A stretch of DNA of 30,219 bases from a virus, in IMG/VR virus record IMGVR_UViG_3300009605_000082, positions 1 to 30,219 of that record, one strand, 5' to 3'. The translations under genes and the position numbers were made by a program. Of the stretch, positions 5,312 to 30,057 are shown piece by piece (position 1 is the first letter of the stretch; the number at the start of each line of letters is the position of its first letter). Below the pieces are notes generated by a model. That model was not told the origin of the DNA, searched no databases, and worked only from the letters and a program-made list of their open reading frames with translations.

Positions 5312-5329
5312 ATTTAAAAATTAAACAAA

Positions 5330-6769: not shown

Positions 6770-6785
6770 GATAAGTATATTTGGT

Positions 6786-6830: not shown

Positions 6831-6843
6831 ATTATATTATATT

Positions 6844-7689: not shown

Positions 7690-7696
7690 TAATCAC

Positions 7697-7731
7697 TTAG
7701 TTGGGTGGCCACCCTTCGGGGTGGTCACTAA
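7697..7731 (+). promoter_or_regulatory. UUCG-capped RNA hairpin after the 281-aa gene
   Basis: The core stem is 7709-7714 with 7719-7724 around a C(TTCG)G loop at 7715-7718. It continues through a G-T pair at 7708/7725 and G-C at 7707/7726. An outer TTAGT/ACTAA pairing (7697-7701 with 7727-7731) leaves a short bulge. Unlike the hairpin at 6786, it is followed by ATAAAAAAACG and has no U tract. It is therefore not a canonical terminator on the + strand and may be an RNA processing or stability element. Confidence 0.7.
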
Positions 7732-7749
7732 ACTATAAAAAAACGAATT

Positions 7750-8484: not shown

Positions 8485-8488
8485 TTAA

Positions 8489-9418
8489 ATGGCAATAGCA
8501 AGAGACGCAGCGCAAGCATATTATGCAACTGGTGGAGATCACGGGAGCTATAGATATATTTCGCTAAACGAGATAATAGATTCCTTTGCAGCGACATATG
8601 TTGGAAAAGGAAAGTTATGCGAAGATGTTATTTTTCCTGATATTACTTTTCACGCAATTAGAGCTTTGCAAGAATTAAGTTATGACACAATCAAGTCTAC
8701 TAAAGATTGGGAGGTTGTTATACCTTCTACGTTAGTTTTAGTTATGCCGCTTGATTACGTTAATTACGTAAAGCTTTCTTGGAGTGATAGTAATGGAATA
8801 GAAAGAATTATATATCCTACGAGTAAAACCTCTAATCCTAATAACGTAGATACAGACGCAACTGCTGACGTGCAGTCTTGGGGTGGTTGGACTACAGACG
8901 GGACCAACGATGATTTAGATTCGTCAGAATCATCAGATACTTGGACTAATTATCAAGCCGAAACAACAAGTGATATTGGGTCTGTAGATGCGGATGAAAT
9001 GGATGATGAGTATGGTAATCTCGTGGGTGAAAGATATGGTATCGACCCTCAACACGCGCAAGCAAACGGGTCTTTCTTTATAGACGAAAGTGCTGGCAAG
9101 TTCCACTTTAGTTCTAATATAAGTGGAAAAACAGTAATATTAAGATACATAAGTGACGGTATAGCAGCTACAAGTGCTACAGACCAGTCGATAAGTCTTG
9201 CAAATAGTTTGGTTCCGAAATTAGCAGAAGAGGCTATATATAAGCATATACTTTATGGAGTCCTATCAGCTAAATCTGATTCAGACCCAAGCATGCTTGC
9301 TCGTATTAAAAAAGAGAGGTTTGCAGAAACTAGAAAAGCTAAGCTTAGGCTTTCAAATATTAAGCTAGAAGAATTAACTCAAATACTTAGAGGACAATCT
9401 AAAATAATTAAACATTAG
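8489..9418 (+). CDS. Putative tail adaptor protein (T7 gp11 / P22 gp4-like role)
   Basis: This 309-aa protein has a helical N-terminal part with LNEIIDSFAATYVGKGKLC and FPDITFHAIRALQELSYDT. A hydrophobic beta segment (VVIPSTLVLVMPLDYVNYV, residues about 75-95) comes next, then an Asp/Ser/Thr-rich loop region (about 120-185). The C-terminal helix is long (SLVPKLAEEAIYKHILYGV...). The arrangement of helical start, beta core and helical tail with a DYVNYVKLSW motif fits adaptor or tail-tubular-A-type proteins that join portal to tail. The gene sits between the 244-aa connector candidate and the giant tail tube/hub gene (3-nt gap), the expected order. It is the only gene in the window ending in TAG. 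The assignment rests on pattern and context, not on a diagnostic residue. Confidence 0.65.
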   Translation: MAIARDAAQAYYATGGDHGSYRYISLNEIIDSFAATYVGKGKLCEDVIFPDITFHAIRALQELSYDTIKSTKDWEVVIPSTLVLVMPLDYVNYVKLSWSDSNGIERIIYPTSKTSNPNNVDTDATADVQSWGGWTTDGTNDDLDSSESSDTWTNYQAETTSDIGSVDADEMDDEYGNLVGERYGIDPQHAQANGSFFIDESAGKFHFSSNISGKTVILRYISDGIAATSATDQSISLANSLVPKLAEEAIYKHILYGVLSAKSDSDPSMLARIKKERFAETRKAKLRLSNIKLEELTQILRGQSKIIKH

Positions 9419-9421
9419 AGC

Positions 9422-12400
9422 ATGCCAGAGTTGAAGAAAATGTTCTCAGCCGCTAAGATGAACAAAGATCTCGATGAGAGACTTGTTCCTCAAGGCGAGT
9501 ATAGAGATGCAACTAATATAGAAATATCGACCTCAGAAGGTTCTAATAGTGGAGTGGTTCAAACCCTAAAGGGTAATACCATGTATAACACTATGGCTAA
9601 TTTTCCATCCCAAGCCGGACAGTATGATTTAGCCTCAAATTACCAGGGCACATGCGTAGGTTCTATAGCAGCTCCCGATAAAGATAAGGTGTATTACTTT
9701 GTTCATCGCGCCTTAAACACGGTTACTAGTGTTGAGTTAGATATAGCTAAAGATTATATACTAGAATTTGATACAGTTACTGAGACTATAAAGTACGCCT
9801 TTGTAGATATATACAGAGTAAATACTACGACTTCTGGAGTTACCGAGGCTAGCACTACGTTTTTTATAGCTGCTGGGGCTGGTAATAGCGAGAATCAGAC
9901 AGGTATAAGAATTGGTATGAATCTAATTTATGGTTCTACCTATGATCTAACGAATAACATTGTTACAGTTACAGACGTAACTTATGATACAGATGAAAAC
10001 AAGTGGAAAATAACAGTAGATACAGCTGTGACTATACCAGCTTCCGCTAGCATTCGATTTGAAGCAGATAGAGTTTTAGAGTTTAATAAAAATACTTTAA
10101 TTACTGCGATAAATATTCTTGATGATTTTATATTTTGGACAGACAACGTTAACGAACCTAAAAAAATACATATAAAACGATCTATGCTCGGTACTGGTGG
10201 TTCAGTAGCTTTGGGTAGTATTTTTGAAGGAAATAATGCTTATTTCCATACACGTTTAGTTATAGACGATTCTGGTGTTGGAGATAATTATTACGTGGTA
10301 ACTAACCCTGCGGGGACTCAACCTGTGTTTACTAACATACACAATGTAACGGTAATTAAGAAAGCTCCAGTAACTCAACTTGAGCTAGACATGTATAGAA
10401 CATCTGTTAGCAGAGTAAATACGGTGACTGGTATTGAGAATAATGTATCAAGTATAGCGACTACCACCGAGTCATGGAGCGATGAGAACAGCTCTCTTAA
10501 TACCGCGGGTAATCCAGTTCCAGTAGGAACAGAAGTAACCGTAAACTTTGAGGAACAAGTAGACTTTAGACTTGGTGACATTTTAATATTTGCACTTGAG
10601 AGCGCTGCTTTAGATGAGGATAATTTTGAAGAGTCTCTGCAGCATGTTAGAGCTGTAGTAACAGAAGTACCAGGTGATAATGATAATCCAGATATTTTAT
10701 ATCAAAACGGCTTTAAAGTAGAGGTTTTATCTATAAAGGATGATGTCGCTAATAACTGGGGTACAGTGGGTAATCCATGGAAAGTAAGACTCGAAGATAA
10801 AGATCCGTTATTTAACTTTAAGTTTCCAAGATTTTCTTATAGATATAAGTATATAGACGGTGAATACTCTACGTTTGCGCCATGGTCTGAGATAGCTTTT
10901 TTACCGACTAATTTTGATTATCAACCTAAGAGAGGTCATAATTTAGGTATGAAGAATGAGATGAGGGGATTGAAGATTAAAAACTATCATCCATCAGAAA
11001 ACTCTTTTCCCCAAGATGTTGTAGAAATAGATATATTATATAAAGAAACAAACAAAACCGCGGTTTACACCGTAAAGACTTTAAGAAAATCAGACGGCTA
11101 TCCATTATGGCCAGACACGAATAACTATCCCGATTCGCGAGGAGAGTTTGAGCTAGCTACAGATATGATTCATGCTGTAGTTCCAGCTAACCAATTATTA
11201 AGACCTTGGGATAACGTGCCAAGAAAAGCCTTGGGCCAAGAGATTACTGCTAATAGATTAGTATACGCCAATTACTTACAAGGATATGATATACCTAAAG
11301 AACCAACTATAAACACGAGCTTCGCCCACGTAGATATAAATGAAGAAGGTAATACTTATCCTTTGCCTTCTGTTAAAACTATGCGCGACTACCAAGTGGG
11401 AGTTGTTTTTAGTGACAGATTCGGTAGAGAAACACCCGTGTTAACAAACAAGGATTCATCTATAAGATTAGATAAAAAATATGCTAAGTATAAAAACAGG
11501 ATAAAAGTACGTCTAAGCGGCGATTCAGAAATTCCAAGTTGGGCTGAGTATTACTCTTTCTATATAAAAGAAACTTCTGTAGAGTACTACACAATGTCTA
11601 TGGATCGTTGGTATAACGCTTCAGACGGAAATATATGGTTGTCGTTTCCTTCATCAGAAAGAAATAAAGTAATGGAAGAGGATTTTTTAATCCTCAAAAA
11701 AGCACACGGTTCAGGAGCTATTGTTGAAGAAAAGGCTAAGTATAAAATATTAGCTATAAAAAACGAGGCCCCTGATTTTATTAAAACAAGGAAACTTAGT
11801 TTAGGCAAGATAACGTCTCAAGATGACATTGGTAGCAGCGGAAACGGGTTTCCTTTAGTAGGAGTAAAAGGGGTTAATATAGCCACAAGTGCTTTTAAAG
11901 AAGCTTATGGCGAGTCGTTTACTGCTGATCGTGATTATGAAAGACTATTTATAAGAGTTTGGGCTGGCAACGAAGCTTCAATGCCATACGAGGTAACTAA
12001 TATTGCTGATTCTGGAACTAACTATACGTTAAATCTGTTACACCCATTTGGTGAAGACATGAGCATTACGTCTACTAACGATACTTACGAGAGTCGTGTA
12101 GATGGCATAGGTATTGAGCTCATTGATTACAAAGTACAAAACTTACCAGAGTTTGACGGTCGATTCTTTGTTAAAATATATAAAGATGATGTATTAGAAA
12201 ATTATGTTGCTATTAACAGCGATATCGACTATTATATAAAGCAAGCTTGGAAATTAGGTTATATAAATAACAATGGCTACGTAAATGCTGGTACAAGAAC
12301 TGGAGGTAATTACTCTGGTGGTTTTGAAGGAGCTTGCCCTGTGTATCCAGTATATCCGTACAATAAGTACGGCGTAGATTACCTCGAGGTAACTAGTGAA

Positions 12401-15400
12401 ACTGAAGGAAATCCTCAGGCGTGGCAAAAGCACTATTCTTCTTGGGAATATGATTACGCAAGATATCATCCCACGGAGCACAATTGGTATGAATTATCGC
12501 AAGACGCTAACGAAGCTTTTACTGGAGCTACGTCACAAGAGTCTACATATAACAATGGCGGGCGCTATAAGTTCTTAACTGGTACTGGTGAATGGCAATT
12601 AGCTGGAGTTAAGGATAATATGGAAGACTGTATGGTAAGGGCTATTAATGGCTTTGGTGGTTGGGGATCAAATGGAATTGGTGGCGAGGGAAATACTTTT
12701 ACCAAGTACGCTAAATACTTTTGGTGGTATACGCGCCAACACAAAGCGTTCTGGATTGACGCATGTACCGCAGCTGTTTACGGTGGTAGAGGCAATACTG
12801 GTAATAACTTTCGACCAGGTACTAAATATACGCCTCATAAATATTTAGATCAAAATCCAGACGATAGTGAAGTTTCTTATCTAGGATTTACCGTGGCAAA
12901 TGATGAAGGTTTCCAAACGCATGGAACATTTAATCACAATTTCTGGTACGAAGAAGGAGAACTTGGAGTTAGCGACGACGAAGCGGGTGTAAGCGGTGGA
13001 TATGCGCTTCCTGGAACGGAAGGACCATCCATATCATCAGGATTTGATATGACTAATATTCTTTGGTACGGTTATACAAGTGATGGTAACTGGCACCACG
13101 GTGGTAATACAGCACCTAGTAGAGGTATATGGACAGATGGCGGTGATTGCTTTATGGATATTTCGTGGAACAGCTTTAACAATCGCGGAAATGAGTGGGC
13201 AGTTAATTCAGGTATGACTGGAATACCATCTAGACTTTCTGACGATACTGGTGCCGTAGCTCCTAATGGTTCTACAACAACTAGTCAAGGTGATATGCCA
13301 GCTGAAGCAGCTTGGGAATTTATAAAAGAATTTGTTACGCCTGGGACTAAGTTTAGATTTAAGCGCTGTCCTGATCAGCAGGTATATACTATAAAAGCCT
13401 TTACCAGTAGCACGACGGATATTGGAAAATATAATGATTGGGGTTTTTACGGCGATAATCACGGTAACTCCTTATCACATCTCCAAAGAGGTACTTATGG
13501 TATAAGAAATGTTATTGTGGGATACTCAAGCAGTGACGACGAATCAGACGCATCACGTCAGTATTTTACGAGTTGGAATAATAGACAAAGGTGGACTGTA
13601 AGGGTAGAACCTATGATAGGTGGCGCAGAAACAGAGTGTGGTTATAATCCAATACACGGTACTGATCCGAATTTAGTTACAGATTATAATGATTCTAAAT
13701 TTAGAAGAGCCCTCCAGCACGACGGTTTTGGTAATAAGTCTGGTTATGATGCTATAGAAATATTAACTCCATTTAATACAGGTGAATCTTCGTATTCTGA
13801 TAACCCGGCTGTATGGGAAACAGAACCTAGAGAAGCTGTTGAGTTAGATATATACTACCAAGCATCGCATTTAATACCTGTTAATTTAAATTCTAAAACT
13901 ATTGAAGAATATATCTCTATAGGATCTAAGTTTAAGATTAATGGTTATATCCCACTGCAACAAGGTGGCGCTACGCCAACAACGACTACTCACACGGTAA
14001 CTGGTCTAGATGGGAATGTAGTAACGTTCACGCCTGCTATAAGCACATATGGAGCGTCTTCAGTTGACGGTAATGTAAGCGGACCTGGTTTGGCAATTAA
14101 TGATTATGTTGAATTTGAAACTCATGGAAATACTATTTCAATATCATCCACGACTAGTGCCTCTGAAATAGGCGCTACTAGCATGACTATTAGTACGAAT
14201 TCATGGGAAGCACAGCATAAACTTGGATGGAGTAACTGTTGGAGCTTTGGTGACGGGGTTGAATCTGATAGAATTAGAGACGACTTTAACGCTCCACAAT
14301 TAGATAATGGAGTTAAGGCCTCAGCTACATTGGCTAACAAAAGTATTAGAGAAGAGCATAGAAAATACGGTTTGATATGGTCGGGTTTATATAATTCTAA
14401 TTCTGGAGTTAATGATACGAATCAGTTTATAATGGCTGAAAAGATAACCAAGGAAGTTAACCCATCACACGGTAGTATACAAGCACTAAAAGCTAGAGAT
14501 ACGCAAGTTGTATTATTTTGTGAAGATAAAGTATTACGCGCTCAAACAAACAAAGACGCTCTATACAATGCTGACGGTAATCCTCAATTAATAGCTAGCA
14601 ATAAAACTATAGGTGATATAGCTGCATATAAGGGAGATTTCGGCATATCTACAAATCCAGAGTCTTTAGTTGCTACCCCATATAGTATGTATTTTACCGA
14701 TGTAATGAGAGGTAAAGTTTTAGCGTTATCTCCAGAAGGCGTAAGAGCTATATCTGAGCATGGTATGAAAGATTACTTTGCTGATACTATGAATTCATAT
14801 GTAGACAAGGCTATAGGTACATATGACGAGAGAAAGAACGAGTATAATATATCTTTAAATAAAAAGTATAGACACGATCAAAAACTACCTACTGAACAAA
14901 TCACCGTTTCATACAGTGAAAAATCAAAGGGTTGGACTAGCTTCAAAACGTTTTATAAATCATATGACACTTCACCTGCTGAAGTCCAGGGCTTAGAGCA
15001 TGGGCTTAGTTTAAATAACAACTACTACACGTTCTTTGATGGTCATATATGGAAGCATCACTCTAATGAAACTAGGAATAACTTCTACGGAACACAATAC
15101 ACTTCTGATGTAACTGTTTTATTTAACGATCAACCAGAGGCTGTTAAGAGTTTTAACACAATAAACTACGAAGGCTCTCAAGCTAAGATAACAAATTGGG
15201 ATGACGCTGGTTTTGGTAGTCAATCTGGCGCCACTGATGGAGTAGGGTTTTACAATAACGATTCAACTACCGGTAGCGGAGCCACAGCGGGTACCACAAC
15301 TGTTAACAATGTTAGCGACAGAGAATACTTTAATATACCTAACACTGTTAGCGGATGGTATGTAGATAATATCGCCACTAACTTACAAGAGTGCGAAACT

Positions 15401-15604
15401 CTAGAGTTTAAGGACAAAGAGGGCAAGTGGTTTGCGTATCCAACGGGTGCAACAACAAACATCGATAATCTTGACGAAAAAGAGTTTTCTGTTCAAGGTT
15501 TAGGTATAGCAACAATGGATCATAGTAATGATTCATATGGCGCAACTATAACAATAACTACTAACGACAGTTCTACCGCATCAGGTGGAGCATCATGGGA
15601 TTAA
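9422..15604 (+). CDS. Giant tail tube / hub (muzzle-type) protein, 2060 aa
   Basis: The N-terminus reads KMNKDLDERLVPQGEYRDATNI followed by an EGSNSGVVQTLKGN stretch, a pattern I associate with tail tube/hub proteins of environmental podoviruses (role of T7 gp12 or P22 gp10). Residues about 470-780 hold conserved-looking blocks: FKFPRFSYRYKYIDGEYSTF, VGVVFSDRFGRETPVL and a WAEYYSFYIKE stretch. Residues about 940-1370 are an aromatic, Gly- and Asn-rich stretch unlike the rest. Residues about 1670-1900 (VVLFCEDKVLRAQ, YFTDVMRGKVLALSPEGVR, TVSYSEKSKGWTSFK, NNYYTFFDGHIWKH) look like blades of a beta-propeller, as known for hub proteins. It is more than twice T7 gp12 (794 aa), so it may also carry receptor-binding or muzzle functions. 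No signal peptide or transmembrane segment is seen. It starts 3 nt after the adaptor-like gene. Confidence 0.75.
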   Translation: MPELKKMFSAAKMNKDLDERLVPQGEYRDATNIEISTSEGSNSGVVQTLKGNTMYNTMANFPSQAGQYDLASNYQGTCVGSIAAPDKDKVYYFVHRALNTVTSVELDIAKDYILEFDTVTETIKYAFVDIYRVNTTTSGVTEASTTFFIAAGAGNSENQTGIRIGMNLIYGSTYDLTNNIVTVTDVTYDTDENKWKITVDTAVTIPASASIRFEADRVLEFNKNTLITAINILDDFIFWTDNVNEPKKIHIKRSMLGTGGSVALGSIFEGNNAYFHTRLVIDDSGVGDNYYVVTNPAGTQPVFTNIHNVTVIKKAPVTQLELDMYRTSVSRVNTVTGIENNVSSIATTTESWSDENSSLNTAGNPVPVGTEVTVNFEEQVDFRLGDILIFALESAALDEDNFEESLQHVRAVVTEVPGDNDNPDILYQNGFKVEVLSIKDDVANNWGTVGNPWKVRLEDKDPLFNFKFPRFSYRYKYIDGEYSTFAPWSEIAFLPTNFDYQPKRGHNLGMKNEMRGLKIKNYHPSENSFPQDVVEIDILYKETNKTAVYTVKTLRKSDGYPLWPDTNNYPDSRGEFELATDMIHAVVPANQLLRPWDNVPRKALGQEITANRLVYANYLQGYDIPKEPTINTSFAHVDINEEGNTYPLPSVKTMRDYQVGVVFSDRFGRETPVLTNKDSSIRLDKKYAKYKNRIKVRLSGDSEIPSWAEYYSFYIKETSVEYYTMSMDRWYNASDGNIWLSFPSSERNKVMEEDFLILKKAHGSGAIVEEKAKYKILAIKNEAPDFIKTRKLSLGKITSQDDIGSSGNGFPLVGVKGVNIATSAFKEAYGESFTADRDYERLFIRVWAGNEASMPYEVTNIADSGTNYTLNLLHPFGEDMSITSTNDTYESRVDGIGIELIDYKVQNLPEFDGRFFVKIYKDDVLENYVAINSDIDYYIKQAWKLGYINNNGYVNAGTRTGGNYSGGFEGACPVYPVYPYNKYGVDYLEVTSETEGNPQAWQKHYSSWEYDYARYHPTEHNWYELSQDANEAFTGATSQESTYNNGGRYKFLTGTGEWQLAGVKDNMEDCMVRAINGFGGWGSNGIGGEGNTFTKYAKYFWWYTRQHKAFWIDACTAAVYGGRGNTGNNFRPGTKYTPHKYLDQNPDDSEVSYLGFTVANDEGFQTHGTFNHNFWYEEGELGVSDDEAGVSGGYALPGTEGPSISSGFDMTNILWYGYTSDGNWHHGGNTAPSRGIWTDGGDCFMDISWNSFNNRGNEWAVNSGMTGIPSRLSDDTGAVAPNGSTTTSQGDMPAEAAWEFIKEFVTPGTKFRFKRCPDQQVYTIKAFTSSTTDIGKYNDWGFYGDNHGNSLSHLQRGTYGIRNVIVGYSSSDDESDASRQYFTSWNNRQRWTVRVEPMIGGAETECGYNPIHGTDPNLVTDYNDSKFRRALQHDGFGNKSGYDAIEILTPFNTGESSYSDNPAVWETEPREAVELDIYYQASHLIPVNLNSKTIEEYISIGSKFKINGYIPLQQGGATPTTTTHTVTGLDGNVVTFTPAISTYGASSVDGNVSGPGLAINDYVEFETHGNTISISSTTSASEIGATSMTISTNSWEAQHKLGWSNCWSFGDGVESDRIRDDFNAPQLDNGVKASATLANKSIREEHRKYGLIWSGLYNSNSGVNDTNQFIMAEKITKEVNPSHGSIQALKARDTQVVLFCEDKVLRAQTNKDALYNADGNPQLIASNKTIGDIAAYKGDFGISTNPESLVATPYSMYFTDVMRGKVLALSPEGVRAISEHGMKDYFADTMNSYVDKAIGTYDERKNEYNISLNKKYRHDQKLPTEQITVSYSEKSKGWTSFKTFYKSYDTSPAEVQGLEHGLSLNNNYYTFFDGHIWKHHSNETRNNFYGTQYTSDVTVLFNDQPEAVKSFNTINYEGSQAKITNWDDAGFGSQSGATDGVGFYNNDSTTGSGATAGTTTVNNVSDREYFNIPNTVSGWYVDNIATNLQECETLEFKDKEGKWFAYPTGATTNIDNLDEKEFSVQGLGIATMDHSNDSYGATITITTNDSSTASGGASWD

Positions 15605-18731: not shown

Positions 18732-19364
18732 ATGAACACAGACGATATTGATAATCAAGCAATAAACGATCCGCTATCTAAGGAAGAGTTAAGAAAGCAA
18801 TTTATAGAGAAAACTGAAGAGCTAGGTTTAAAACACGCTTTCACGTTTGATGAGGCTTGGGAGGTTGCTCAAGAGCTTAGACGTAAGCAAGAATTTAGAG
18901 AGAAGATAACTGATCTTCACGAAGAAATGGTGCAAGGTGGTGGATTAGTTGGAGAAGACGCCGAGAGGGTTAATCCTACAAAACACACGTTTGCTGGCGG
19001 ATGTTATATTAGAGAGATATTTAATCCCGCTGGGATATTGGTTATCACTAAGATACATAAAAAAGAACATCCCTTCTTCTTAATGAAAGGCAAGATGTCT
19101 ATATTAACAGAGGATGGTATAAAAACAATAGAAGCACCGCACCACGGTGTAACCCAACCCGGCACTAAAAGAGCTATATACGCACACGAGGACTGCGTGT
19201 TTATTACTGTACATGCTACAGATAAGACAACGCCTGAAGAAGTTGAAGAAGAAGTTATAGCTAAAGACTTTAATGATAGTGATATATCATTAGAGAGTGA
19301 TATAAACGAATTAAGCAAAATAATAGATCTTAATACAGATTTAATTAAAATGAATACACGATGA
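18732..19364 (+). CDS. Cupin-fold protein in the tail gene cluster (210 aa)
   Basis: Residues 1-75 are helical and charged. Residues about 85-162 look like a single cupin beta-barrel: G-C-Y-I-R-E-I-F-x-P-A-G-I, then I-H109-K-K-E-H113-P-F-F-L-M-K-G120 (cupin motif 1, two His and Gly), then A-P-H-H-G-V-T-Q-P143-G144-T-K-R-A...H161 (motif 2). The two-His pattern could bind a metal, but the usual motif-1 Glu is not clearly placed, so the fold may be purely structural. Residues 165-210 are acidic and helical. Cupin-like proteins of this kind occur beside fibre genes in marine phages. Whether this one is a virion part, a chaperone or an enzyme cannot be told from sequence. Its stop overlaps the next start (ATGA at 19361-19364), implying translational coupling to the first ejection-type gene. 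Confidence 0.65.
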   Translation: MNTDDIDNQAINDPLSKEELRKQFIEKTEELGLKHAFTFDEAWEVAQELRRKQEFREKITDLHEEMVQGGGLVGEDAERVNPTKHTFAGGCYIREIFNPAGILVITKIHKKEHPFFLMKGKMSILTEDGIKTIEAPHHGVTQPGTKRAIYAHEDCVFITVHATDKTTPEEVEEEVIAKDFNDSDISLESDINELSKIIDLNTDLIKMNTR

Positions 19365-19975
19365 GTTTTGTAACAGTAGCAACTGGCGTTATAAGCGCTG
19401 GAGTAGGAGTAGCCAAACTAGTACAAGGTAGAAAAGCAGCTAAAGAAGCTAAGGAGCAGGCTGATCTTTCTCGTATAGAGATGGATAAGCAAAAAGAAGC
19501 TTTTCAACAACTTGACACAAGTAATCCATATTTGAATATGGAGAATACCATGGAAGACGCTACAGTAAACCAGCAGGCAGCCGAGTTCGCTCAACAAGGT
19601 GCGTTACAATCTCAAGCTAACGTTATGGATAAAATGCGTGGTGCGGCTGGAAGCTCTGGTATAGCAGCGCTTGCGCAAAGTATGGCTAACCAAGGTTCTA
19701 TGGACGCGCAAAAAGCCGCGACATCTATTGCCGATCAAGAAGCAGCTAATCAGAAAGCTGAACGTGCAGAAGCGTCTAGATTACAGGGTCTTGAGAAACA
19801 AGGTGAGATGCAGAAGAGGCAGATGGAGCAAGCTAAGATTGATTCCCTTATGGGTATGGCCGCGGGTGATGTTTCGTCTTCTCAAGCTTTACAAGCAGCG
19901 GCAATGGAATCTCAAGGCCAAGCTATGGATGATATAGCAGGCGGAGCAACTACGGCGATGGGTGGTATAGGATAA
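19361..19975 (+). CDS. Putative internal virion / ejection protein A (T7 gp14-like role, 204 aa)
   Basis: Residues 1-22 (VTVATGVISAGVGVAKLV) are hydrophobic and Gly/Ala-rich, a possible membrane-inserting segment. The rest is helical and rich in Ala, Gln, Met, Glu and Lys (QSQANVMDKMRGAAGSSGIA, ALAQSMANQGSMDAQKAA), then K/Q/M coiled coil and a Gly/Ala/Met tail. Size and composition are close to T7 gp14 (196 aa), which forms the outer-membrane channel during DNA ejection, though I cannot align the two. It is the first of three successive genes of rising size with similar Ala/Gln/Glu-rich character, the same order as T7 gp14-gp15-gp16. The start overlaps the cupin gene stop. No catalytic residues are expected or seen. 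Confidence 0.66.
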   Translation: MSFVTVATGVISAGVGVAKLVQGRKAAKEAKEQADLSRIEMDKQKEAFQQLDTSNPYLNMENTMEDATVNQQAAEFAQQGALQSQANVMDKMRGAAGSSGIAALAQSMANQGSMDAQKAATSIADQEAANQKAERAEASRLQGLEKQGEMQKRQMEQAKIDSLMGMAAGDVSSSQALQAAAMESQGQAMDDIAGGATTAMGGIG

Positions 19976-19996: not shown

Positions 19997-21679
19997 ATGT
20001 CAGAAGGAATATTTACACCGAATTACGGATTATCAGAATTTACTAGGAAAGCAGTAAAAGAAGCTGGAGTAGGCGGAGAAAAAGCAGCGAAGGCTAGAGC
20101 TCACCTTGCTAAAGCAGACATGCTTGGTAAAATAGGGGCAGGTGTTGATACTGTAGGTAAACAGGCGGATGAAATGGTTGGTAGTATAAAAGCCAACAAC
20201 GCTGCAAAAAAACTAGAGGAGGAAAAAGCAAAATTAGCAATTGAAGCCGCGGAGGCGGCGACGCGTGGACAAGAGGGAGATGATAGGTATATGACAGCTG
20301 TCGGACCTGGTAGGGATGAGTATTATGCTCAAGAAAGAGCGGCGGCTGGAGACACCTTGGAGAATTGGGAAAAGCGTGGTAAACCACTGTCTGAGAGAGT
20401 ATCACTATCTGGTAACTCACCTGTCGAGATGAAATCACCTGCAAAATCCCTAAGTGGATTATCTGAAGTGCACGATAGCCAGAGTGAAGAGCTACCAGCT
20501 TTTGATGAAGCTGACTTAAAATGGAGGGAGGGCTTTTCAAAGATGAACGACCGTCAGAGTTGGGCATCTCCAGAATTATATAGCCAGTTCCAAAGTATGG
20601 AGAGACGCGAAAAAGAAAAGCACTTAACTGCAATTAGAAATAAAGATAAAGCAGGCGCGGCTAAGGTTTTAGCGGATCAATCTGCCCGCGCAAACGCGCT
20701 AAAAGATATTCAACAAACCATGACAACTGCTATGCAAATAGATAAAGACCATGGGTGGAATGTAATAATAGAAGGAGACGACGATCAAGCTAAAGGTAAT
20801 AGAGAAATCCTAAGCGCACTAGCATCTAATGATGGTACTGCTAAAGTGGCGTTAGATCCAGAAAGTGGTGAGATGGGTTTTACTCTTGGGGAAATTGATC
20901 CTGCGACAAGTAACCCGCTGCCGAACATTGATCCAATAACAGGTCAACTCATTGGCACTCCTAAGGTGTGGATGCATAGAGAGATAGATGAGTTAATAAG
21001 TGTTGGTACACGTCCACTACATAGAGAAGAGACTTTCCAAAATGGGATAATGGAAGCTAACGCACTAGGTACTGCTGGAGGAGAGTTTGATGCAGATGCT
21101 AGAAATAAGATAAACAAAGGTAAAATTAAAGAAGAGCTTATAAAGAATCCAAAGGTTGCTAGATCTATTCTTCATGACACTTGGGGTGGCGATAACACGC
21201 TTGCGGAAGATCTTATGGAAGGTAATGTTATTCAGAACATGGACTTTAGATTAAAGATGCCTAGAAGCTTTGGTACTTGGAAAAGACCTTTACCAGATGG
21301 CCCTGCTATCAATGAATTAGATGTAGATAACGATGGGTTTTTAACTGCAGCAGATTTAACTCAAGGTGATGTAGCTCGCATCCTTCAAGAGTTAGAAAAA
21401 CGTGAGCACTATAAATTACTAGCTGAGATTGCGGGTGACTGGATGACTCGAAAGGAGCAGAATGTTCACGGGCCAGCTAAAGCAAATTACGATGCTCAAC
21501 AGGAGCAAACCGCGAAACAGGCTGAAGCTGATAAATTAAGTCAGATGACAGAGCAGCAGCGAATGGATTACTTTAAAGCGCTAGGTGACGCAAGATACTT
21601 TAGTGGTAAAACAGCAGCTGAAAAGATCGAATACTATAAACTAAAAAGAGCTAAAGAGACAGCAAATTTAAACGCTTAA
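19997..21679 (+). CDS. Putative internal virion / ejection protein B with EF-hand-like loop (560 aa)
   Basis: Residues 1-95 are Ala/Lys/Glu/Gly-rich and helical (KAAKARAHLAKADMLGKIGAG). Residues about 95-190 are polar and probably flexible. The remainder is mixed helical, with a Gln/Glu/Ala-rich C-terminus. Residues 442-453 (D-V-D-N-D-G-F-L-T-A-A-D, DNA 21320-21355) match the 12-residue EF-hand or dockerin calcium loop: Asp at 1, 3, 5 and 12, Gly at 6 and a hydrophobic at 8. Only one such loop is evident. The gene lies between the 204-aa and 2787-aa proteins, the slot of T7 gp15 (747 aa), part of the periplasmic tunnel. An ejection role is inferred from position and composition. The leader (attaataaaaaataattATG) has no Shine-Dalgarno sequence. 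Confidence 0.62.
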   Translation: MSEGIFTPNYGLSEFTRKAVKEAGVGGEKAAKARAHLAKADMLGKIGAGVDTVGKQADEMVGSIKANNAAKKLEEEKAKLAIEAAEAATRGQEGDDRYMTAVGPGRDEYYAQERAAAGDTLENWEKRGKPLSERVSLSGNSPVEMKSPAKSLSGLSEVHDSQSEELPAFDEADLKWREGFSKMNDRQSWASPELYSQFQSMERREKEKHLTAIRNKDKAGAAKVLADQSARANALKDIQQTMTTAMQIDKDHGWNVIIEGDDDQAKGNREILSALASNDGTAKVALDPESGEMGFTLGEIDPATSNPLPNIDPITGQLIGTPKVWMHREIDELISVGTRPLHREETFQNGIMEANALGTAGGEFDADARNKINKGKIKEELIKNPKVARSILHDTWGGDNTLAEDLMEGNVIQNMDFRLKMPRSFGTWKRPLPDGPAINELDVDNDGFLTAADLTQGDVARILQELEKREHYKLLAEIAGDWMTRKEQNVHGPAKANYDAQQEQTAKQAEADKLSQMTEQQRMDYFKALGDARYFSGKTAAEKIEYYKLKRAKETANLNA

Positions 21680-21693
21680 GTAAATTAAGACTA

Positions 21694-24600
21694 ATGATTG
21701 ATAACGAGTTAGAAGAAATTGTACTTGCTATGGAACAGGCTGGGGAATCCCCAGAAGCTATTGGTCAAGTGATAGAAGAATATGAGGCAAAAAAAGCCCA
21801 AGACTCTCAGGCAAGCCCAAACGGGGAGTCAATGACTCCAGGGCAAGAAACAGGAGAGCTACCTTCTACTACGGAACCTACAGAGGAAGGCTCTTTATTA
21901 GCTGTAGAGCCTGAAGAACCTCAGGTTTCCGATTTAGATACTAGTATTAACTTGGTTACACTATCGCAAGAACAAAGAGACGGTGTAATAAAAGATGCTA
22001 ATCGTAGTGTAGCTGAATATTCTCTTGTAAAAGAAACTAAAGGCAAGGATACTGAAACAGTGAAGGAGTGGATTACAAGTAATCCAGATGCAATAGAACC
22101 TCCACAAATGTGGAATGAGGGGCTTAAGCATGAGTTTAGAGTTCAAAAAGCAAACGAGTCTGGGACATTCTATGAACATGTTGATCCACGGGAAACTGTG
22201 GGGTCTATAAATGCTAGTAGTGCTTTGCAGGAATCCCGTAGAAGTATGGCGATGAACAAGCTTTTCAAAGAGAAGGTTGAGTCTGGAGAGCTTGAGGAAG
22301 ATCAAGTTAAGAACTACGTGTTAAGTTTTAGTGATTGGGATAAGCTTAAAGATATAGAGCAAACTATAGATTTAGAAGATCCGAACGTTAAATCTATGGC
22401 TGTTCAAAGCACTATTGATACTAACTTATTATCTAATATAGAGAAGAACGTAGAGGATCAAGCTCAGGCTATGGATATAGGTTGGTTCACATCATCTGAC
22501 GAGCAAGATAAATTATACGAAAAGGCTCAACAGCGTTTGGTTGAAGTTGACGAAAAAATAAAGAACGTAATTAAAAAATCTCACGTAGTTGGTGGTGATA
22601 TCGAAGCGCTAGACGCTACTTTAGCGACTCAGAATAGTTGGCTTAAAGAAACTGGGGATAGATTAAACGATATCAACAGCCAAGCTCCAGCTCCAATGGC
22701 GCCTATAGGTGCTTCTGAACAAAAAATTGAAGAGCTACAACAGCAACACGACGCAGCTATATTACAAAGAGAGAAATCAATTAAGGAATATAGGGTTAAG
22801 GAAGAGGAATACAACAAGAATCTCGAAATTAGAGATAAGTATGTAGGACTTATCGAAGGTTATTCTAACGAGGTTCAGCAATTAGGTTTAGACGAAAAGG
22901 AGCTGCGTGTTTACGCTAAATCTATGGGTAAAAACTATAGCCAAGGAGCTATGATTGCAAACAGTTTAACCTCTGGTACCGTAGACTTAGTGCAAGGTTT
23001 TGAGCGAGGTCTTTATTTAGTCAATCCAGTTGGGTTTGCAACCGACGTTATTGTTAATCAGTTTGAAGGAGAAAACAGAGCTCTAGCTAATAACGTAGCA
23101 ACAGGAGTACGTAACACTATAGGCACAGTGGCTGGTGGTCGCATGTATACTAAAATGGACCCTAACGATAGAAGCGCTAGAGAGTGGATGCATGACGGTG
23201 TTGACGGTTTTCAACAATATATGCTAGATGAGGTTGTTGGAACTCCTATTGCTTATGATGATATAAAAACAACAGCTGATGGAGCTGAATGGTTAGTTAA
23301 TTCTATAGCTACAAATCTACCGCAGATAGGTGTTGCTATGGGAACTGGTCCATATGGTATAGCTATACTAGGTACTAGCGCTATGGGTAATCACTATGAC
23401 TCCATGCAATCTCAGAAAGACTTGTATATGAACTCTTCTGGTTTGTATGGAAACTACTATTCAGCTCCTAACATGCTCCTTACATCTGCTGGCGTAGGTA
23501 TAGTTGAGGGTGTTACTGAGAAGTGGACGGCTAATCTAGTATCCGGCGTAGGAAATATTGTTACTAGAGGTAGCAAAGAGATGATCCACCAGTCTCTTGG
23601 TAGAAGAATGTTAAGGGGTGGTCTTACATACCAAATGGAGAGTATTGGTGAGGGTGGTTCTGAGATTTTTGCAACCGTAGGACAAAATGGTCTTTCTATG
23701 TTAAGTGGTGATAAGTCTGTCGGTTTGTTTGATGGCGTTGCACCATCGTTTATCACTGGCTATACTATGGGTAATATAATACAAACACCCTCACTAGCTA
23801 ACGCGGCGTTGTCTCCATTTGCTTCACAAAAACAAACAACCACCATAGACGCTAACTTTCAAAAGATTGAGAAGTTAAAACAAGAGCTGTCTACTCTTGA
23901 TAAAAATAACCCAGCACACGTAGAGCGTTCTGAACAGATATATAGAGATGTAGCCGACGCGGTTTCAGAAAATGCTGATGTTATAGCTCAAGACGTAAAG
24001 CGTGTTGATATAATGACTAACACCGATAAGCAGACGTTAGTTAATATAGAATCTGACAATAGAAAGCTACGTCAAGCTGTGTCAGAAGTTGCTCTTGATC
24101 AATCGTTAGATGCTGCTGAAAAGAAAGAGCAGATAGAGGTTATTAATAAAAAGATTAGATCTAATAAAACTACTAAAGAGAATATAATTGAATCTTATCC
24201 AGATAGCGCTGCTAATGATAACTACATAAAGGAGTATAATAAGATTAAAGCTATGGCAAAGAAAGCTGAAGAATCTGGAGCTCCTCCAATCAGAGTTAGA
24301 GACGGTTTAGAGCAAGATATGCAAGCCTTTATTAAGGAAATGGAGGATATAGGTGCTATTGATGCCATAGCAGCTTCCGAAGGTGGAGCTTTACCTTATG
24401 GAGCTATGGTACCGGTATTAAATAAGAAAGGTGAAGTAGAGAGATTTGAGTTGTTTATAAATAGAAGCGCGGTAAATGAAGACGGTGCTTTCGGAACTCA
24501 AGCTCACGAGTTTATGCACGCAATCTTGTATAACACATTAAAGCAAGACCCTGTGAATAGAGAAAGGATGGGTGATGAGGTTGATAAAATACTTCAAGGT

Positions 24601-27600
24601 CCAGGGGTAACGATAAGTCCAAAAGCCCAAAAGAGTCTTGACAGATTAGACTTGTACGAGTCAGAACAAAAAGGCGAGGAGATTGTTGCTATTGTTTCAG
24701 AGTTGATGGCGGAAGGAGAGATCACGATAGATAACACGGGTGTGGGTAAATTTAAAGATATGTTTAGAAGATTTACACAGCGTGTTGCTGGTAGAGATAT
24801 ATCTTTCGACACAACTGATGACGTGCGTAACTTTCTAAAGGACTATCATAAGTCTATGCGTAAAGGTAAGTTGGACCCTCGTTTATCTCGTATGCTATCT
24901 AAGGGTGCTAATGGTGATATAATTAAACCTAACGAAGTTCTTGGTGAGAAAAAGGTTAAAGAAAAAGTTGTTGAAAAAGCTAAAAGAAAAGCTAAGATTG
25001 ACTTCTCTAAAGCTGTTGATTCAAACATAAGATCTAATCCTGATCTAATGAAGACTTTCGACACGTTCACTAAGAACGAAGACGGTACGTCTAAACATGA
25101 GAGCCAAGAGGATTGGGAGGCTAGTCCAGAATATTGGGATGCGTATTTTCAAATAGTAGAAGGAAGAGCTTTAGACGGTTTGATTCAGCATAAGATGACT
25201 GAACTTGGTTTACCACCTGAAGCATTAAGAGAGTTTACTAGAAAAGTTAAGGAAAAGATTGGTGAAAGATTTTTACCTACAGTAGATAAGGCTACAGGTA
25301 GAGTAAAACCTGAATCTGGATATAGGGTTTCAAATAATAGTTTATTTGGTTGGTTAACTGGTGTCGCTGGTGGCGGCGGTATGTCTGTTATATACAGAGC
25401 TAAAGGTGATGTAATGGCTGAATACAAGGCTTCTGGTGCAGCCCAAACGTCGTCATTAGACGCTGTGATTGGTGATAACATGGTTGTTGGTGACGTAGTT
25501 CAAGCTGATATTGATAGTTCTATTGAAGCTTTTGAAGAGATGGATCAATCCATAACACGTGAAGCACGTGAGGCTAGAAAACCAAAAAGATTTGTTGATA
25601 CTATAAATCTTGATGAGACTATACAGAAAAACATTGCAAACGCCGTATCTAAAGCAAATATAAGTACGGAAGGCTTAAACTATAAAGATGTTAAAAAACT
25701 AACCACCAGTAAAGACGCCCCATTATCTAACGTATTAAATGCTATAGCAAGTGAGTTTGGTATTCCACCAAGTAAGGTAGTAAAGCCAGCAGATTTGAAT
25801 AAAGCTGAAAGAGAAGCAGCGCAGCAGTATATTAAAAATAACTCAAAGGCTTTGCTAAATATGCTGCCTGAGGGTGAGACTAGAAGCGGCGAGGCTACAG
25901 GTGTGGCTAATACAAAACTAAAAACTTTTTACGAAAAAGGTGAGAGGTTAAAGTACGCGGAAGGTGCCACTGCTGCCGGAAAGTTTGCTCAAATAAAAAA
26001 ACCCGATATAACAGTAGAGCAATTTAATGAGGTGTTTGGTATAAAACCAAACGGCACTTTTGATTCTAGTAGAAAAAACGATGGCGCTATAAAAGCTTTA
26101 GTTAATCAAGCCGCTATGATAACAGCTAATCAAGCTATTAGAAAGAACGCTATTGAAGAGGGGTTAGATACAGCTAGTGATATAGCAAAGCTTGGTGAAG
26201 GAAGATCAGAAGCTATGTTTAGCAAGAGAAGTTACGATGATAAATCTAGCAAAAATGTAGATAAAATCTTTAATGAAAACTTTAAAGAAACCTATATATA
26301 TCCTTTAGGTACACTAGGTGCTATGTTTGGCACCAAGAGAGTTCCAAACAAACAGGTTAGCCGTGTAAAATCAAACGGAACTATTGAGAAGTTTAATACT
26401 AGAGATCTTCAAGCTTCTTTCAGTGAAACAGAAACGTACGATCAAGCTGGTACTAGGGTTATTAATACATTTGTAGAGTCGTTTCCTCAGTTTAGAGATT
26501 TAATAAAAATCACTATGACCGGCGGTATAAAAGGTGGTTTTTTTCAAACAGTAGGTAACTTCAATGACAAGATAAAAAGTACTGATGTTGATCAAAGAAA
26601 CCCAGGCAAGTCGGATTATAACAAAAAGAGAAGGTTTATGCCTTCAGTGTTCAATAAGATAGGCACTAAGGATTTCAAAGAAAACCAAGCTGGAAGATTA
26701 CCTTTACTATATGATTTCTTTAAAGCTGTTGAAACTCATTTGTCTCAATATCCTGATGACGTGTGGATGTTTGAAGAGATGCTTCTTGATACTGGTAAGC
26801 AGCAAAATACTTTGACTAGAATACTAGCGCCTTTTGCGTTCTATACTATAGATCCTAAAACAGGTAAACCAGTATTTAATAAAGACGTGGTTGAAGAGCA
26901 TACCGACCCACAAAACCAAATTGGTAAATCTTTATTAGCCGCGGCTTTATATGGTAAAGTTGATCAAGTTTGGAAGGTGGTTGGTAAGTCATATATGCAA
27001 GGTTCTCTTTTAGAAACTGGTGACAAAAAATTAGGCAATGCAGGTCTCGGAAACACTATGCCAGACGTGTATTTTGAAAAAGTTGTCCCTAGATTGCTAA
27101 GTGAAGAGCTAAATCTACCTAATGGATATTCTTCTTTAGCGAGATTGTCTGTAGCTGGTATAGATCCAAACTCTATATATTTAATAGAGGCTGATATGAC
27201 AATGGCTGAATTTTTTAAAGTAGATAAAGCTGAAAACATAGATCAAGCTAATAACTTAATTATACAACAGTTATCTGGAGAAATAACACCTGAGTTTACC
27301 GACGTAGTATCTAACCTAGTAACTCCAGAGCATGTTAGTAAAACACGAATTATAAACAAGGCTATTGAGGCTTCTGAGCAAAGCAAGGAACCTAAAGGAA
27401 TAACAGTGCTTGATTTTGATGACACGTTAGCTACAACAAAATCCAACGTTCTATATACAGCTCCAGATGGTGCAACGGGTAAATTAAACGCTGAAGAGTT
27501 TGCTAAGCAAGGATCTGATTTACTGTCAGAAGGTTATAAGTTTGATTTCTCCGAGTTTAATCAGGTTGTTGATGGTAAGACGGCGCCGCTGTTCAATAAA

Positions 27601-30057
27601 GCTATGAAGCTATCTGATAAGTTTGGAACAGATAACATGTTTATCCTTACTGCTAGAGCGCCTGAGTCTGCGCCAGCAATAAAAGAGTTTCTTGATGCTC
27701 AAGGCTTGAATATACCACTTGACAACATAACTGGTTTAGGTAAGTCAGAAGCCGAGGCTAAAGCGTTATGGATAGCTGAAAAGGTTGGAGAGGGCTACAA
27801 CGACTTCTACTTTGCAGACGACGCAATACAAAATGTTAAAGCTGTCAAGGATATGCTTGATCAGTTTGATGTAAAAGGTAAAGTTCAACAAGCTAAAATA
27901 GATTTTAGTAAGCGCGCTCCAAAAGAAATGGAGAATATCATCGATGAAAAGCAAGGTGATTTAGACTCTGACTTTAATACTATGCTTGAAGAAAGCAGAG
28001 GTATAGGAAAACAGAAGAGATTCTCTGCAGCTAAAGCTAAACAAAGAGGAAAGAACAAAGGTAAGTTTAAATTCTTCATTCCACCTTCAGCGGATGATTT
28101 CGCTGGATTGATGTATTACTTTATGGGCAAAGGTAAAACAGGTAATCAACATCATAAGTGGTTTAAAGAAAATTTATTCGATCCTTTCTCTAAAGGTATA
28201 AGACATCTCAATGGCGTTAAGCAAGCTGTAGCAAATGATATAAAGCAGCTTAGAAGTGCTATGCCTGAGGTTAGGAAGAAGTTAGGTAAAAAGCTTAAGA
28301 ACACGGAGTATACTCACGCTGATGCTATCAGGATTTACAATTGGGATAAGGCCGGTTTTGATATACCTGGTTTATCAGAAACAGATAAGAACACCATAAT
28401 AAGAGAGATCAACGCTGATGCTCAGTTGAAAGCTTTCGCCGACGGCGTGAACTCTATAAGCAACATGCCTGGTGGTTTAGTAGAACCTGGTGAACACTGG
28501 TTAGGTGGAACTATAGCTTCTGATATGACAGATGCTTTAGAAAATGCCAGAGCTACATACTTGCAGCAGTGGAAAGAAAACGTTGATATAATATTCAACG
28601 AAGCTAATCTTAATAAGATAGAAGCTGAATATGGTTCTAATTTCAGAGAAGCGCTAGAAGATATTCTGTTTAGAATGGAACACGGAGGTAATAGATCTCG
28701 TGGAGCTGGAAGGTTATTAAATAACTTTACGTCTTGGATACATGGTTCTATAGGTACAACTATGTTCTTTAACGCTAGATCTGCTGTACTTCAGATGATT
28801 TCTAATGTTAACTTCATTAACTGGAGTGATAACAACATGCTGAAGGCAGCCGGAGCGTTCGCAAATCAACCTCAGTATTGGAAGGATGTTGCTATGATTT
28901 TTAACTCTCCTTTCTTGAAGCAAAGAAGAGCTGGTCTACAGACAGACGTTAACGCAGCAGAGTTACTAGCTCAAATCAAAGATTCCAAGAATAAAATGAA
29001 AGCCGCTACAGCTTATTTATTACAACTTGGTTTTACGCCTACGCAGATTGCGGATAGCTTGGCTATTGCTACTGGTGGTGCTACAATGTATCGTAATAGA
29101 ACAAAGACATATGTAAAAGAAGGTATGTCTAAAAAGGATGCTGAGTCAAAAGCTTTTAAGGACATGATGGAGATTGCTGAAGAAACTCAGCAGTCAGCAA
29201 GAGAAGATAGAATATCTCAGCAGCAAGCTTCTCCTCTCGGTAAGTTTATATTAGCTTTCCAAAATACACCTATGCAGTATAACAGACTTATTAAGAAAGC
29301 TGCTATGGATTTAGTTAATGGTAGAGGAGATCAAAGAGCTAACGTATCTAAAATCGTTTACTATGGAGCTATTCAAAACGTAATATTCTATGGTTTGCAA
29401 CAAGCTTTATTTGCAGCTCTATTTGGAGATGACGAAGAAGATGAGTTAACAGATAAGAAAAAGGAGAGGATAATAAACGGAATGATGGACACATTATTAC
29501 GTGGAGCAGGTATAGGTGGCGCAGTGGTGTCTACTATTAAGAACGTTGTCTTAAAGTTTGCTAAGGAAAGCGAAAGAATGGATGACACAACAACTAGGTT
29601 GGATAAAGATGGTAATGTTATAATTGATCCAGAAACTGGTCAACCAAAATTGTATGACAACTTCTTCACTGATCCAGATTGGGGCAACGTAGTTATTGAA
29701 GCTTTAAATATATCTCCACCAATAGGTATTAAAGCTAGAAAAATATACAGTGGTTTAAAAACATGGGAGTACAATAACGATGTTATTGATCACATGAGCA
29801 AGACTGATATTGATAACCCAATATATGATGCTGTTTTCAGTGGAACTGAAGCGGTTACAAACTTACCATTAAGTAGACTATACAACAAGTTCCAGAATAT
29901 TAGTGAAGCAATGGATTCTGATCATGAAACTTGGAAGCGGGTTGCAATGTTATTAGGTTGGAGTAAGTGGAGTTTTGGTATTAAGAACCAAGACGTAATG
30001 ACAGCTAAGAACGAGCTTAAAGAAATTAAAGAAAAAGAGAAAGAAGAGAAAAACTGA
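21694..30057 (+). CDS. Giant polyvalent internal protein: HExxH metallopeptidase, HAD phosphatase, LPD38-like C-terminus (2787 aa)
   Basis: This is the largest protein of the window and the third of the putative ejection set (gp16-like slot). Residues 1-60 are acidic. Residues about 410-640 hold Gly/Ala-rich, membrane-prone stretches (for example 530-572). Residues about 880-1005 are a zinc metallopeptidase: Q-A-H938-E939-F-M-H942, with E995, E996 or E1003 as candidate third ligand. Residues about 1100-1900 are several unnamed modules. Residues about 1903-2060 are a HAD domain: D1907-F-D1909-D-T1911-L, T1986 in L-T-A-R, and A-D2042-D2043. Residues 2110-2787 include FKFFIPPSADDF, a hydrophobic helix near 2552-2577 and a C-terminal region resembling the phage large-polyvalent-protein domain LPD38. 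Such proteins are thought to enter the host with the DNA. I see no lytic transglycosylase motif like that of T7 gp16. The frame may continue past its stop (see 30056-30124). Confidence 0.8.
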   Translation: MIDNELEEIVLAMEQAGESPEAIGQVIEEYEAKKAQDSQASPNGESMTPGQETGELPSTTEPTEEGSLLAVEPEEPQVSDLDTSINLVTLSQEQRDGVIKDANRSVAEYSLVKETKGKDTETVKEWITSNPDAIEPPQMWNEGLKHEFRVQKANESGTFYEHVDPRETVGSINASSALQESRRSMAMNKLFKEKVESGELEEDQVKNYVLSFSDWDKLKDIEQTIDLEDPNVKSMAVQSTIDTNLLSNIEKNVEDQAQAMDIGWFTSSDEQDKLYEKAQQRLVEVDEKIKNVIKKSHVVGGDIEALDATLATQNSWLKETGDRLNDINSQAPAPMAPIGASEQKIEELQQQHDAAILQREKSIKEYRVKEEEYNKNLEIRDKYVGLIEGYSNEVQQLGLDEKELRVYAKSMGKNYSQGAMIANSLTSGTVDLVQGFERGLYLVNPVGFATDVIVNQFEGENRALANNVATGVRNTIGTVAGGRMYTKMDPNDRSAREWMHDGVDGFQQYMLDEVVGTPIAYDDIKTTADGAEWLVNSIATNLPQIGVAMGTGPYGIAILGTSAMGNHYDSMQSQKDLYMNSSGLYGNYYSAPNMLLTSAGVGIVEGVTEKWTANLVSGVGNIVTRGSKEMIHQSLGRRMLRGGLTYQMESIGEGGSEIFATVGQNGLSMLSGDKSVGLFDGVAPSFITGYTMGNIIQTPSLANAALSPFASQKQTTTIDANFQKIEKLKQELSTLDKNNPAHVERSEQIYRDVADAVSENADVIAQDVKRVDIMTNTDKQTLVNIESDNRKLRQAVSEVALDQSLDAAEKKEQIEVINKKIRSNKTTKENIIESYPDSAANDNYIKEYNKIKAMAKKAEESGAPPIRVRDGLEQDMQAFIKEMEDIGAIDAIAASEGGALPYGAMVPVLNKKGEVERFELFINRSAVNEDGAFGTQAHEFMHAILYNTLKQDPVNRERMGDEVDKILQGPGVTISPKAQKSLDRLDLYESEQKGEEIVAIVSELMAEGEITIDNTGVGKFKDMFRRFTQRVAGRDISFDTTDDVRNFLKDYHKSMRKGKLDPRLSRMLSKGANGDIIKPNEVLGEKKVKEKVVEKAKRKAKIDFSKAVDSNIRSNPDLMKTFDTFTKNEDGTSKHESQEDWEASPEYWDAYFQIVEGRALDGLIQHKMTELGLPPEALREFTRKVKEKIGERFLPTVDKATGRVKPESGYRVSNNSLFGWLTGVAGGGGMSVIYRAKGDVMAEYKASGAAQTSSLDAVIGDNMVVGDVVQADIDSSIEAFEEMDQSITREAREARKPKRFVDTINLDETIQKNIANAVSKANISTEGLNYKDVKKLTTSKDAPLSNVLNAIASEFGIPPSKVVKPADLNKAEREAAQQYIKNNSKALLNMLPEGETRSGEATGVANTKLKTFYEKGERLKYAEGATAAGKFAQIKKPDITVEQFNEVFGIKPNGTFDSSRKNDGAIKALVNQAAMITANQAIRKNAIEEGLDTASDIAKLGEGRSEAMFSKRSYDDKSSKNVDKIFNENFKETYIYPLGTLGAMFGTKRVPNKQVSRVKSNGTIEKFNTRDLQASFSETETYDQAGTRVINTFVESFPQFRDLIKITMTGGIKGGFFQTVGNFNDKIKSTDVDQRNPGKSDYNKKRRFMPSVFNKIGTKDFKENQAGRLPLLYDFFKAVETHLSQYPDDVWMFEEMLLDTGKQQNTLTRILAPFAFYTIDPKTGKPVFNKDVVEEHTDPQNQIGKSLLAAALYGKVDQVWKVVGKSYMQGSLLETGDKKLGNAGLGNTMPDVYFEKVVPRLLSEELNLPNGYSSLARLSVAGIDPNSIYLIEADMTMAEFFKVDKAENIDQANNLIIQQLSGEITPEFTDVVSNLVTPEHVSKTRIINKAIEASEQSKEPKGITVLDFDDTLATTKSNVLYTAPDGATGKLNAEEFAKQGSDLLSEGYKFDFSEFNQVVDGKTAPLFNKAMKLSDKFGTDNMFILTARAPESAPAIKEFLDAQGLNIPLDNITGLGKSEAEAKALWIAEKVGEGYNDFYFADDAIQNVKAVKDMLDQFDVKGKVQQAKIDFSKRAPKEMENIIDEKQGDLDSDFNTMLEESRGIGKQKRFSAAKAKQRGKNKGKFKFFIPPSADDFAGLMYYFMGKGKTGNQHHKWFKENLFDPFSKGIRHLNGVKQAVANDIKQLRSAMPEVRKKLGKKLKNTEYTHADAIRIYNWDKAGFDIPGLSETDKNTIIREINADAQLKAFADGVNSISNMPGGLVEPGEHWLGGTIASDMTDALENARATYLQQWKENVDIIFNEANLNKIEAEYGSNFREALEDILFRMEHGGNRSRGAGRLLNNFTSWIHGSIGTTMFFNARSAVLQMISNVNFINWSDNNMLKAAGAFANQPQYWKDVAMIFNSPFLKQRRAGLQTDVNAAELLAQIKDSKNKMKAATAYLLQLGFTPTQIADSLAIATGGATMYRNRTKTYVKEGMSKKDAESKAFKDMMEIAEETQQSAREDRISQQQASPLGKFILAFQNTPMQYNRLIKKAAMDLVNGRGDQRANVSKIVYYGAIQNVIFYGLQQALFAALFGDDEEDELTDKKKERIINGMMDTLLRGAGIGGAVVSTIKNVVLKFAKESERMDDTTTRLDKDGNVIIDPETGQPKLYDNFFTDPDWGNVVIEALNISPPIGIKARKIYSGLKTWEYNNDVIDHMSKTDIDNPIYDAVFSGTEAVTNLPLSRLYNKFQNISEAMDSDHETWKRVAMLLGWSKWSFGIKNQDVMTAKNELKEIKEKEKEEKN

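Follow-up and report, generated by a model that had tools for sequence, protein, structure and literature searches.

The window, an entire virus record of 30,219 bases that is probably a genome fragment, encodes a large terminase, a portal, virion structural proteins and a crass-type muzzle, followed at the end by a giant gene, termed P0001 (Table 1). Matches of the terminase and the muzzle are confined to phages of Flavobacterium, Cellulophaga, Tenacibaculum and Maribacter and one environmental podovirus, so that a Bacteroidota host is likely. The gene order corresponds to gp90-gp101 of Cellulophaga phage phi38:1, with additional genes after the muzzle. Positions 15608-18286, between the muzzle and the gp98-like gene, encode an 892-aa protein that matches no family and to which nothing in phi38:1 corresponds. 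The elemo and Panino phages share an identical gene plan with a giant gene at the end in each, and this last gene is annotated as a structural protein in phi38:1 and the Flavobacterium elemo phages. The first-pass annotation had assigned P0001 to a gp16-type slot of a short-tailed phage, in agreement with the gene order, which puts it last in the structural module; the small, medium and giant genes in the last slots resemble gp14-gp15-gp16 of phage T7, by position only.

Table 1. Features of the P0001 locus, in window coordinates.
Feature	Position	Strand	Basis or remark
Crass-type muzzle protein (PF25729)	9422..15604	+	phi38:1 gp97 homolog
204-aa protein, slot of phi38:1 gp99	19361..19975	+	119 of the loci fetched contain a relative
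560-aa protein, slot of phi38:1 gp100 (549 aa)	19997..21679	+	Gene order; no direct BLAST match
P0001 giant protein, 2787 aa	21694..30057	+	Open reading frame; synteny with phi38:1 gp101 and elemo gp18
N-terminal region, aa 361-835	22774..24198	+	Homology to phi38:1 gp101 and elemo gp18
Predicted zincin metallopeptidase domain, aa 820-1125	24151..25068	+	Invariant alignment columns, AlphaFold2 pLDDT 84, VIA-align
Zincin residues H938, E939, H942	24505-24519	+	
Predicted third zincin ligand E996	24679-24681	+	
FSK joint motif, aa 1104-1106	25003..25011	+	Candidate processing site
Variable middle module a, aa 1335-1500	25696..26193	+	Without known family; no Pfam match
FSK joint motif, aa 1509-1511	26218..26226	+	In linker with pLDDT<50; candidate processing site
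Variable middle module b, aa 1520-1890	26251..27363	+	Without known family
HAD domain, aa 1895-2070, Pnkp 3'-phosphatase-like	27376..27903	+	D1907, D1909, T1986, R1988, K2023, D2042, D2043
FSK joint motif, aa 2071-2073, HAD/C-terminal boundary	27904..27912	+	pLDDT<50; candidate processing site
Conserved C-terminal domain, aa 2095-2769	27976..30000	+	Common to >500 viral stretches

The frame of P0001 is open from an ATG start, and the HExxH and HAD residues that had been read from it in the first pass all lie where they had been placed. Direct BLASTP of residues 531-769 against gp101 gave an E value of 3e-5, and an iterated profile of residues 361-835 reached gp101 at E 1e-70 and elemo gp18 at E 8e-67. 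Because the gene order matches phi38:1 and elemo, the last giant gene there is annotated as structural and the N-terminal region is common to them, P0001 is likely a virion protein, and probably an ejected one. In phage crAss001, the cargo proteins encoded behind the muzzle gene were detected in virions by mass spectrometry, and ejection was proposed for them (PMC10172136).

Family searches with the entire P0001 against Pfam and PHROGs returned nothing useful, tblastn against 50,697 phage records retrieved no relative, and sequence searches of the PDB gave noise only. Two traits that had been attributed to the protein were not recovered. The LPD38 model (PF18857), to which its end had been likened, matches nothing in the window with the threshold relaxed to E 10; among 11 relatives one reaches 12.5 bits against a curated cut-off of 27 bits, and members of the C-terminal family have no match either. 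As for the supposed membrane-prone stretches, no 19-residue window of P0001 has a Kyte-Doolittle mean above 1.4. An RNA polymerase was also considered and rejected, as P0001 has no DxDGD-type motif (only DLDSD at residue 2089) and no match to an RNA polymerase family.

Relatives were found in IMG/VR, in four stretches for the whole protein, eight for the middle part, at least 468 for the HAD domain and at least 522 for the C-terminal domain. Several hundred environmental phage stretches contain the unit of HAD and C-terminal domains, which is missed by Pfam, and the whole protein is missed by PHROGs. After removal of duplicates, the fetched loci contained 130 complete giant proteins of 2068-3543 aa from metagenomic viruses; a search for prophages yielded only two contigs in bacterial metagenome-assembled genomes. 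The family follows a common plan, in which a variable N-terminal part leads to the zincin, a variable middle, the HAD domain and the C-terminal domain. The upstream parts form 109 clusters, and two alignments, one of 21 and one of 25 such parts, have almost no invariant columns besides the start methionine and the zincin residues. Wherever a reading frame lies upstream (158 loci), it ends at most 60 nt from the giant gene (median 10). Pfam search of 46 upstream regions found a single domain, a GH108 lysozyme domain that occupies the first about 125 aa of one giant (L070), scores above the cut-off and counts in favour of packaging. In three loci (L001, L002 and L004), the reading frames upstream of or beside the giant encode tail-side proteins with many GCTD..A.NY...A..DDGSC repeats.

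The modules between zincin and HAD vary widely and are swapped on a large scale among relatives; module b shows high conservation in a few relatives (DVWMFEEMLLDTG, EEHTDPQN). By its build, the P0001 family belongs among the phage polyvalent proteins. The first-pass annotation had made the same assignment, and several unrelated domains on one chain and an architecture that varies across relatives sustain it, apart from the LPD38 membership.

Exactly one HExxH is present in 124 of the 130 complete unique relatives, compared to 0.010 expected per protein from composition. In an alignment of the zincin region (A7, 62 sequences), the only invariant columns are the two histidines and the glutamate of this motif, a downstream glutamate and one phenylalanine; H119, E120, H123 and E177 of the alignment correspond to H938, E939, H942 and E996 of P0001, which supply the HExxH and the downstream Glu ligand of a zincin. 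The AlphaFold2 model of this region (pLDDT 84.2) displays an N-terminal helix, a three-stranded sheet (strands 47-51, 84-90 and 96-103), the HExxH helix (116-130) and a second, ligand-bearing helix (171-187), as predicted for a zincin fold. Structural similarity search using VIA-align placed zinc metallopeptidases at the top, from Z 6.4 downward, a Z of ~6 being within the range of common-fold matches; the antirestriction protein ArdC is also in the list, with Z 4.7. Foldseek gave a weak result (E 0.39), again with zinc metallopeptidases in the top rows. Against the PDB, neither the zincin nor the HAD model has a Foldseek match below E 0.001, and the structural calls for both rest on VIA-align rank order. 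None of the Pfam peptidase models matches the segments of four members. The predicted fold and the conserved motif bear out the metallopeptidase proposed in the first pass, and the modelled domain of P0001 is almost certainly a zincin. Three of the exceptions to the single HExxH, the giants L061, L027 and L079, have HDxxH near the expected site, an unusual Glu to Asp replacement of the general base.

The full set of HAD motifs is present in 127 of the 130 relatives, and one relative (L001) scores above the DUF2608 cut-off. The DxDxT, [ST], K and DD motifs sit on a Rossmann-like core in the AlphaFold2 model (pLDDT 80.2), and HAD phosphatases head its structural list. The HAD fold, likewise proposed in the first pass, is supported by this model virtually beyond doubt. 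Two kinds of exception were observed within this domain. One member with the nested kinase described below, L013 (giant at 4609-13908), has an 11-residue deletion that removes HAD motif IV, which is either a real loss or an assembly error, and three others (L018, L040 and L107) carry non-kinase insertions of ~65-135 aa at the point where a kinase is nested in nine relatives.

Further comparison suggests that the HAD domain is most similar to the 3'-phosphatase of polynucleotide kinase-phosphatase (Pnkp). Pnkp phosphatases take up the first five rows of the structural list with Z 10.5-11.1, whereas other HAD proteins reach at most 9.7. A profile built from 13 Pnkp-type phage proteins matched the domain at 93% with the four motifs in register, Pnkp being the only HAD family profiled at that depth; a single-sequence hhalign comparison with T4 Pnkp, made before this family profile was built, was weak (14.7%). 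Residues D165/D167, S211, R213, K258 and D277/D278 of Pnkp align to D1907/D1909, T1986, R1988, K2023 and D2042/D2043 of P0001. PHROG 415, annotated as 'polynucleotide kinase', matches 23 of 40 members, and also 10 of 14 control genomes, which are cellular and lack Pnkp.

In nine relatives a P-loop kinase of ~200 aa is inserted directly after HAD motif I. It matches the Pnkp kinase profile at 97.7%, compared to about 5% or less for controls, and in Pfam the Zeta toxin model fits as well as AAA_33. P0001 has no such insertion, and hence lacks the linked 5'-kinase of a full Pnkp. Each of these lines is moderate singly; taken together, sequence and model make a Pnkp-type phosphatase our best guess for the HAD of P0001. 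The first-pass description of a 'nucleotide- or phosphate-directed' enzyme is right in naming a real HAD domain, although Pnkp-like, in the sense of healing nucleic-acid ends, is probably a more fitting label than that of an unspecific phosphatase.

In line with a Pnkp-type phosphatase, a DNA ligase gene is present in 12 of 13 larger relatives. A route to RNA repair by way of an RNA ligase was considered and rejected: PF09511 has no match (nor has the control), and the matches to PF09414 roughly double their score when taken as DNA ligase. RNA is therefore not favoured over DNA as the substrate of the HAD.

The tripeptide FSK is enriched three-fold overall in the family (298 occurrences, compared to 96.5 +/- 9 in shuffles), and its extended form [KRM]FS[KR] is distributed unevenly along the chain. 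Among 104 cluster representatives, there are 73 sites in 87,107 aa downstream of the zincin, compared to four in 83,126 aa upstream (binomial p about 1e-16, uncorrected for relatedness), whereas the permuted control FKS occurs 24 times downstream and 23 times upstream. The strict motif is found in the linker of only 46 of the 104 representatives and FS[KR] in that of 71; FS[KREQND] is present where the HAD meets the C-terminal domain in 129 of 157 relatives. The [KRM]FS[KR] motif often lies at module joints, e.g. just before the recurring module FSKSHREAYE. In P0001 the joints start at residues 1104, 1509 and 2071, the last two in linkers with pLDDT<50. FS[KR] is absent from DdrB and DarA of phage P1, and rare in phi38:1 gp101, elemo gp18 and the crAss001 cargo. 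This pattern suggests that the [KRM]FS[KR] joints are candidate processing sites of the zincin and is consistent with self-processing.

The best overall explanation, to which we give about an even chance, is that P0001 is a virion cargo polyprotein combining self-processing with nucleic-acid end healing. In the virion of a short-tailed phage with a Bacteroidetes-type host, P0001 would be packaged alongside the 204-aa and 560-aa proteins encoded next to it and would exit the head before the DNA, a step that we regard as quite probable. Its N-terminal region, homologous to that of gp101, may serve as the ejection part. After packaging or injection the zincin might cut the chain at the [KRM]FS[KR] joints and so release the middle modules, the HAD unit and the C-terminal domain as separate pieces, although we rate this step at slightly under even. 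The freed HAD would then, with somewhat better than even likelihood, strip 3'-phosphates from DNA or RNA ends in the manner of the Pnkp phosphatase, and the healed ends would be sealed by a ligase. Through such healing the incoming genome, or tRNAs that host nucleases have cut, could be protected ahead of phage gene expression. The most specific version, an injected self-cutting polyprotein whose zincin frees exchangeable modules at FS[KR] joints, including a Pnkp-like end-healing enzyme (with a nested kinase in some relatives), before phage gene expression, is tentative, and we doubt that it holds as a whole. If it is true, end-healing enzymes would be delivered with the virion, placing repair ahead of phage gene expression.

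The first-pass annotation had instead viewed P0001 as a delivered effector. In such a reading, the zincin would cleave host defence or cell-envelope proteins, the HAD would dephosphorylate host nucleotides or signalling molecules, and the joints would be only flexible linkers. ArdC, an antirestriction polyvalent protein, in the structural list and the arms-race-like variability of the modules around both enzymes fit such a role, and proteolysis of targets by effectors is one option considered by Iyer et al. (PMC5512222); by analogy, a protease that directly disarms host defence is possible. However, an effector does not predict the concentration of FS[KR] downstream of the zincin, a single HExxH kept in almost all members amid so much variation is easier to reconcile with a common internal task than with host targets that change, and the data indicate no host target. 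We consider this reading unlikely, and the motif pattern points to self-processing as the simpler role of the zincin.

Less likely still, the FS[KR] joints might be recombination seams for module swapping rather than cleavage sites. The large-scale swaps between zincin and HAD would suit such seams, as would a motif that often directly precedes a recurring module such as FSKSHREAYE. By contrast, the serine codons of the joints are mixed in background-like proportions (54 TCN and 51 AGY), which argues for selection on the protein and leaves no conserved DNA seam, and the N-terminal modules vary too, yet are nearly devoid of the motif. Least likely, P0001 may be a structural ejection protein only, its domains being relics or scaffolds for packing and extrusion with catalysis dispensable in infection, as would agree with gp101 lacking HExxH and HAD motif in the equivalent slot, with the N4 virion RNA polymerase (vRNAP), the metallopeptidase (MPTase) region of which is needed for encapsidation while the protein is packaged uncut (PMC5512222), and with the exceptional members noted above (L013 and the three with HDxxH), but a scaffold would not need catalytic residues, and these are the most conserved of the family.

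Among known systems, the closest in gene position are gp101 of phi38:1 (Callevirus, Pervagoviridae) and gp18 of elemo (Elemovirus), which share with P0001 the end-of-module slot and N-terminal homology and are annotated as structural proteins. They differ in their domains: gp101 has neither HExxH nor HAD motif, and elemo gp18 has one HExxH (aa 1543) but no HAD motif. The window also resembles the gp45-gp50 region of crAss001 (PMC10172136) in having probable cargo genes after the muzzle, which is crass-type in the window; however, the crAss001 cargo includes RNA polymerase proteins, and profiles built from the N-terminal, zincin and C-terminal parts of the P0001 family do not match it. One of these cargo proteins, gp47 (L195), annotated as an RNA polymerase subunit, has one HExxH (HEAFH, aa 2157) and may also be a zincin. 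N4 vRNAP (PMC12633501, PMC5512222) likewise has an HExxH domain ahead of a large C-terminal portion that is mainly helical, on a giant chain that is ejected, as P0001 probably is. It differs in its RNA polymerase domain, none being found in P0001, and is reported to be packaged unprocessed despite its MPTase, which counts against self-processing (PMC5512222).

T4 Pnkp (PseT) is the nearest structural match of the HAD, with the DxDxT, [ST]xR, K and DD motifs aligned. The kinase of T4 Pnkp is N-terminal, whereas in the nine relatives it is nested within the HAD; in addition, the HAD of P0001 is part of a giant virion-type protein and has DDA where T4 has DDR. Moreover, P0001 resembles those phage polyvalent proteins described by Iyer et al. 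in 2017 (PMC5512222) that have a zincin-like MPTase and are giant, multidomain and encoded near virion genes, with the zincin as a hub domain among highly variable neighbours and presumed delivery with the genome. The text of that study mentions no HAD phosphatase or kinase-phosphatase domain, we saw no joint motif described in it, and it leaves self-cutting by the MPTases as an open proposal, a question for which the P0001 family offers a concrete candidate cleavage motif and more than 100 natural variants. Unlike those polyvalent proteins, the P0001 family keeps the HAD and the long conserved C-terminal domain as a constant pair.
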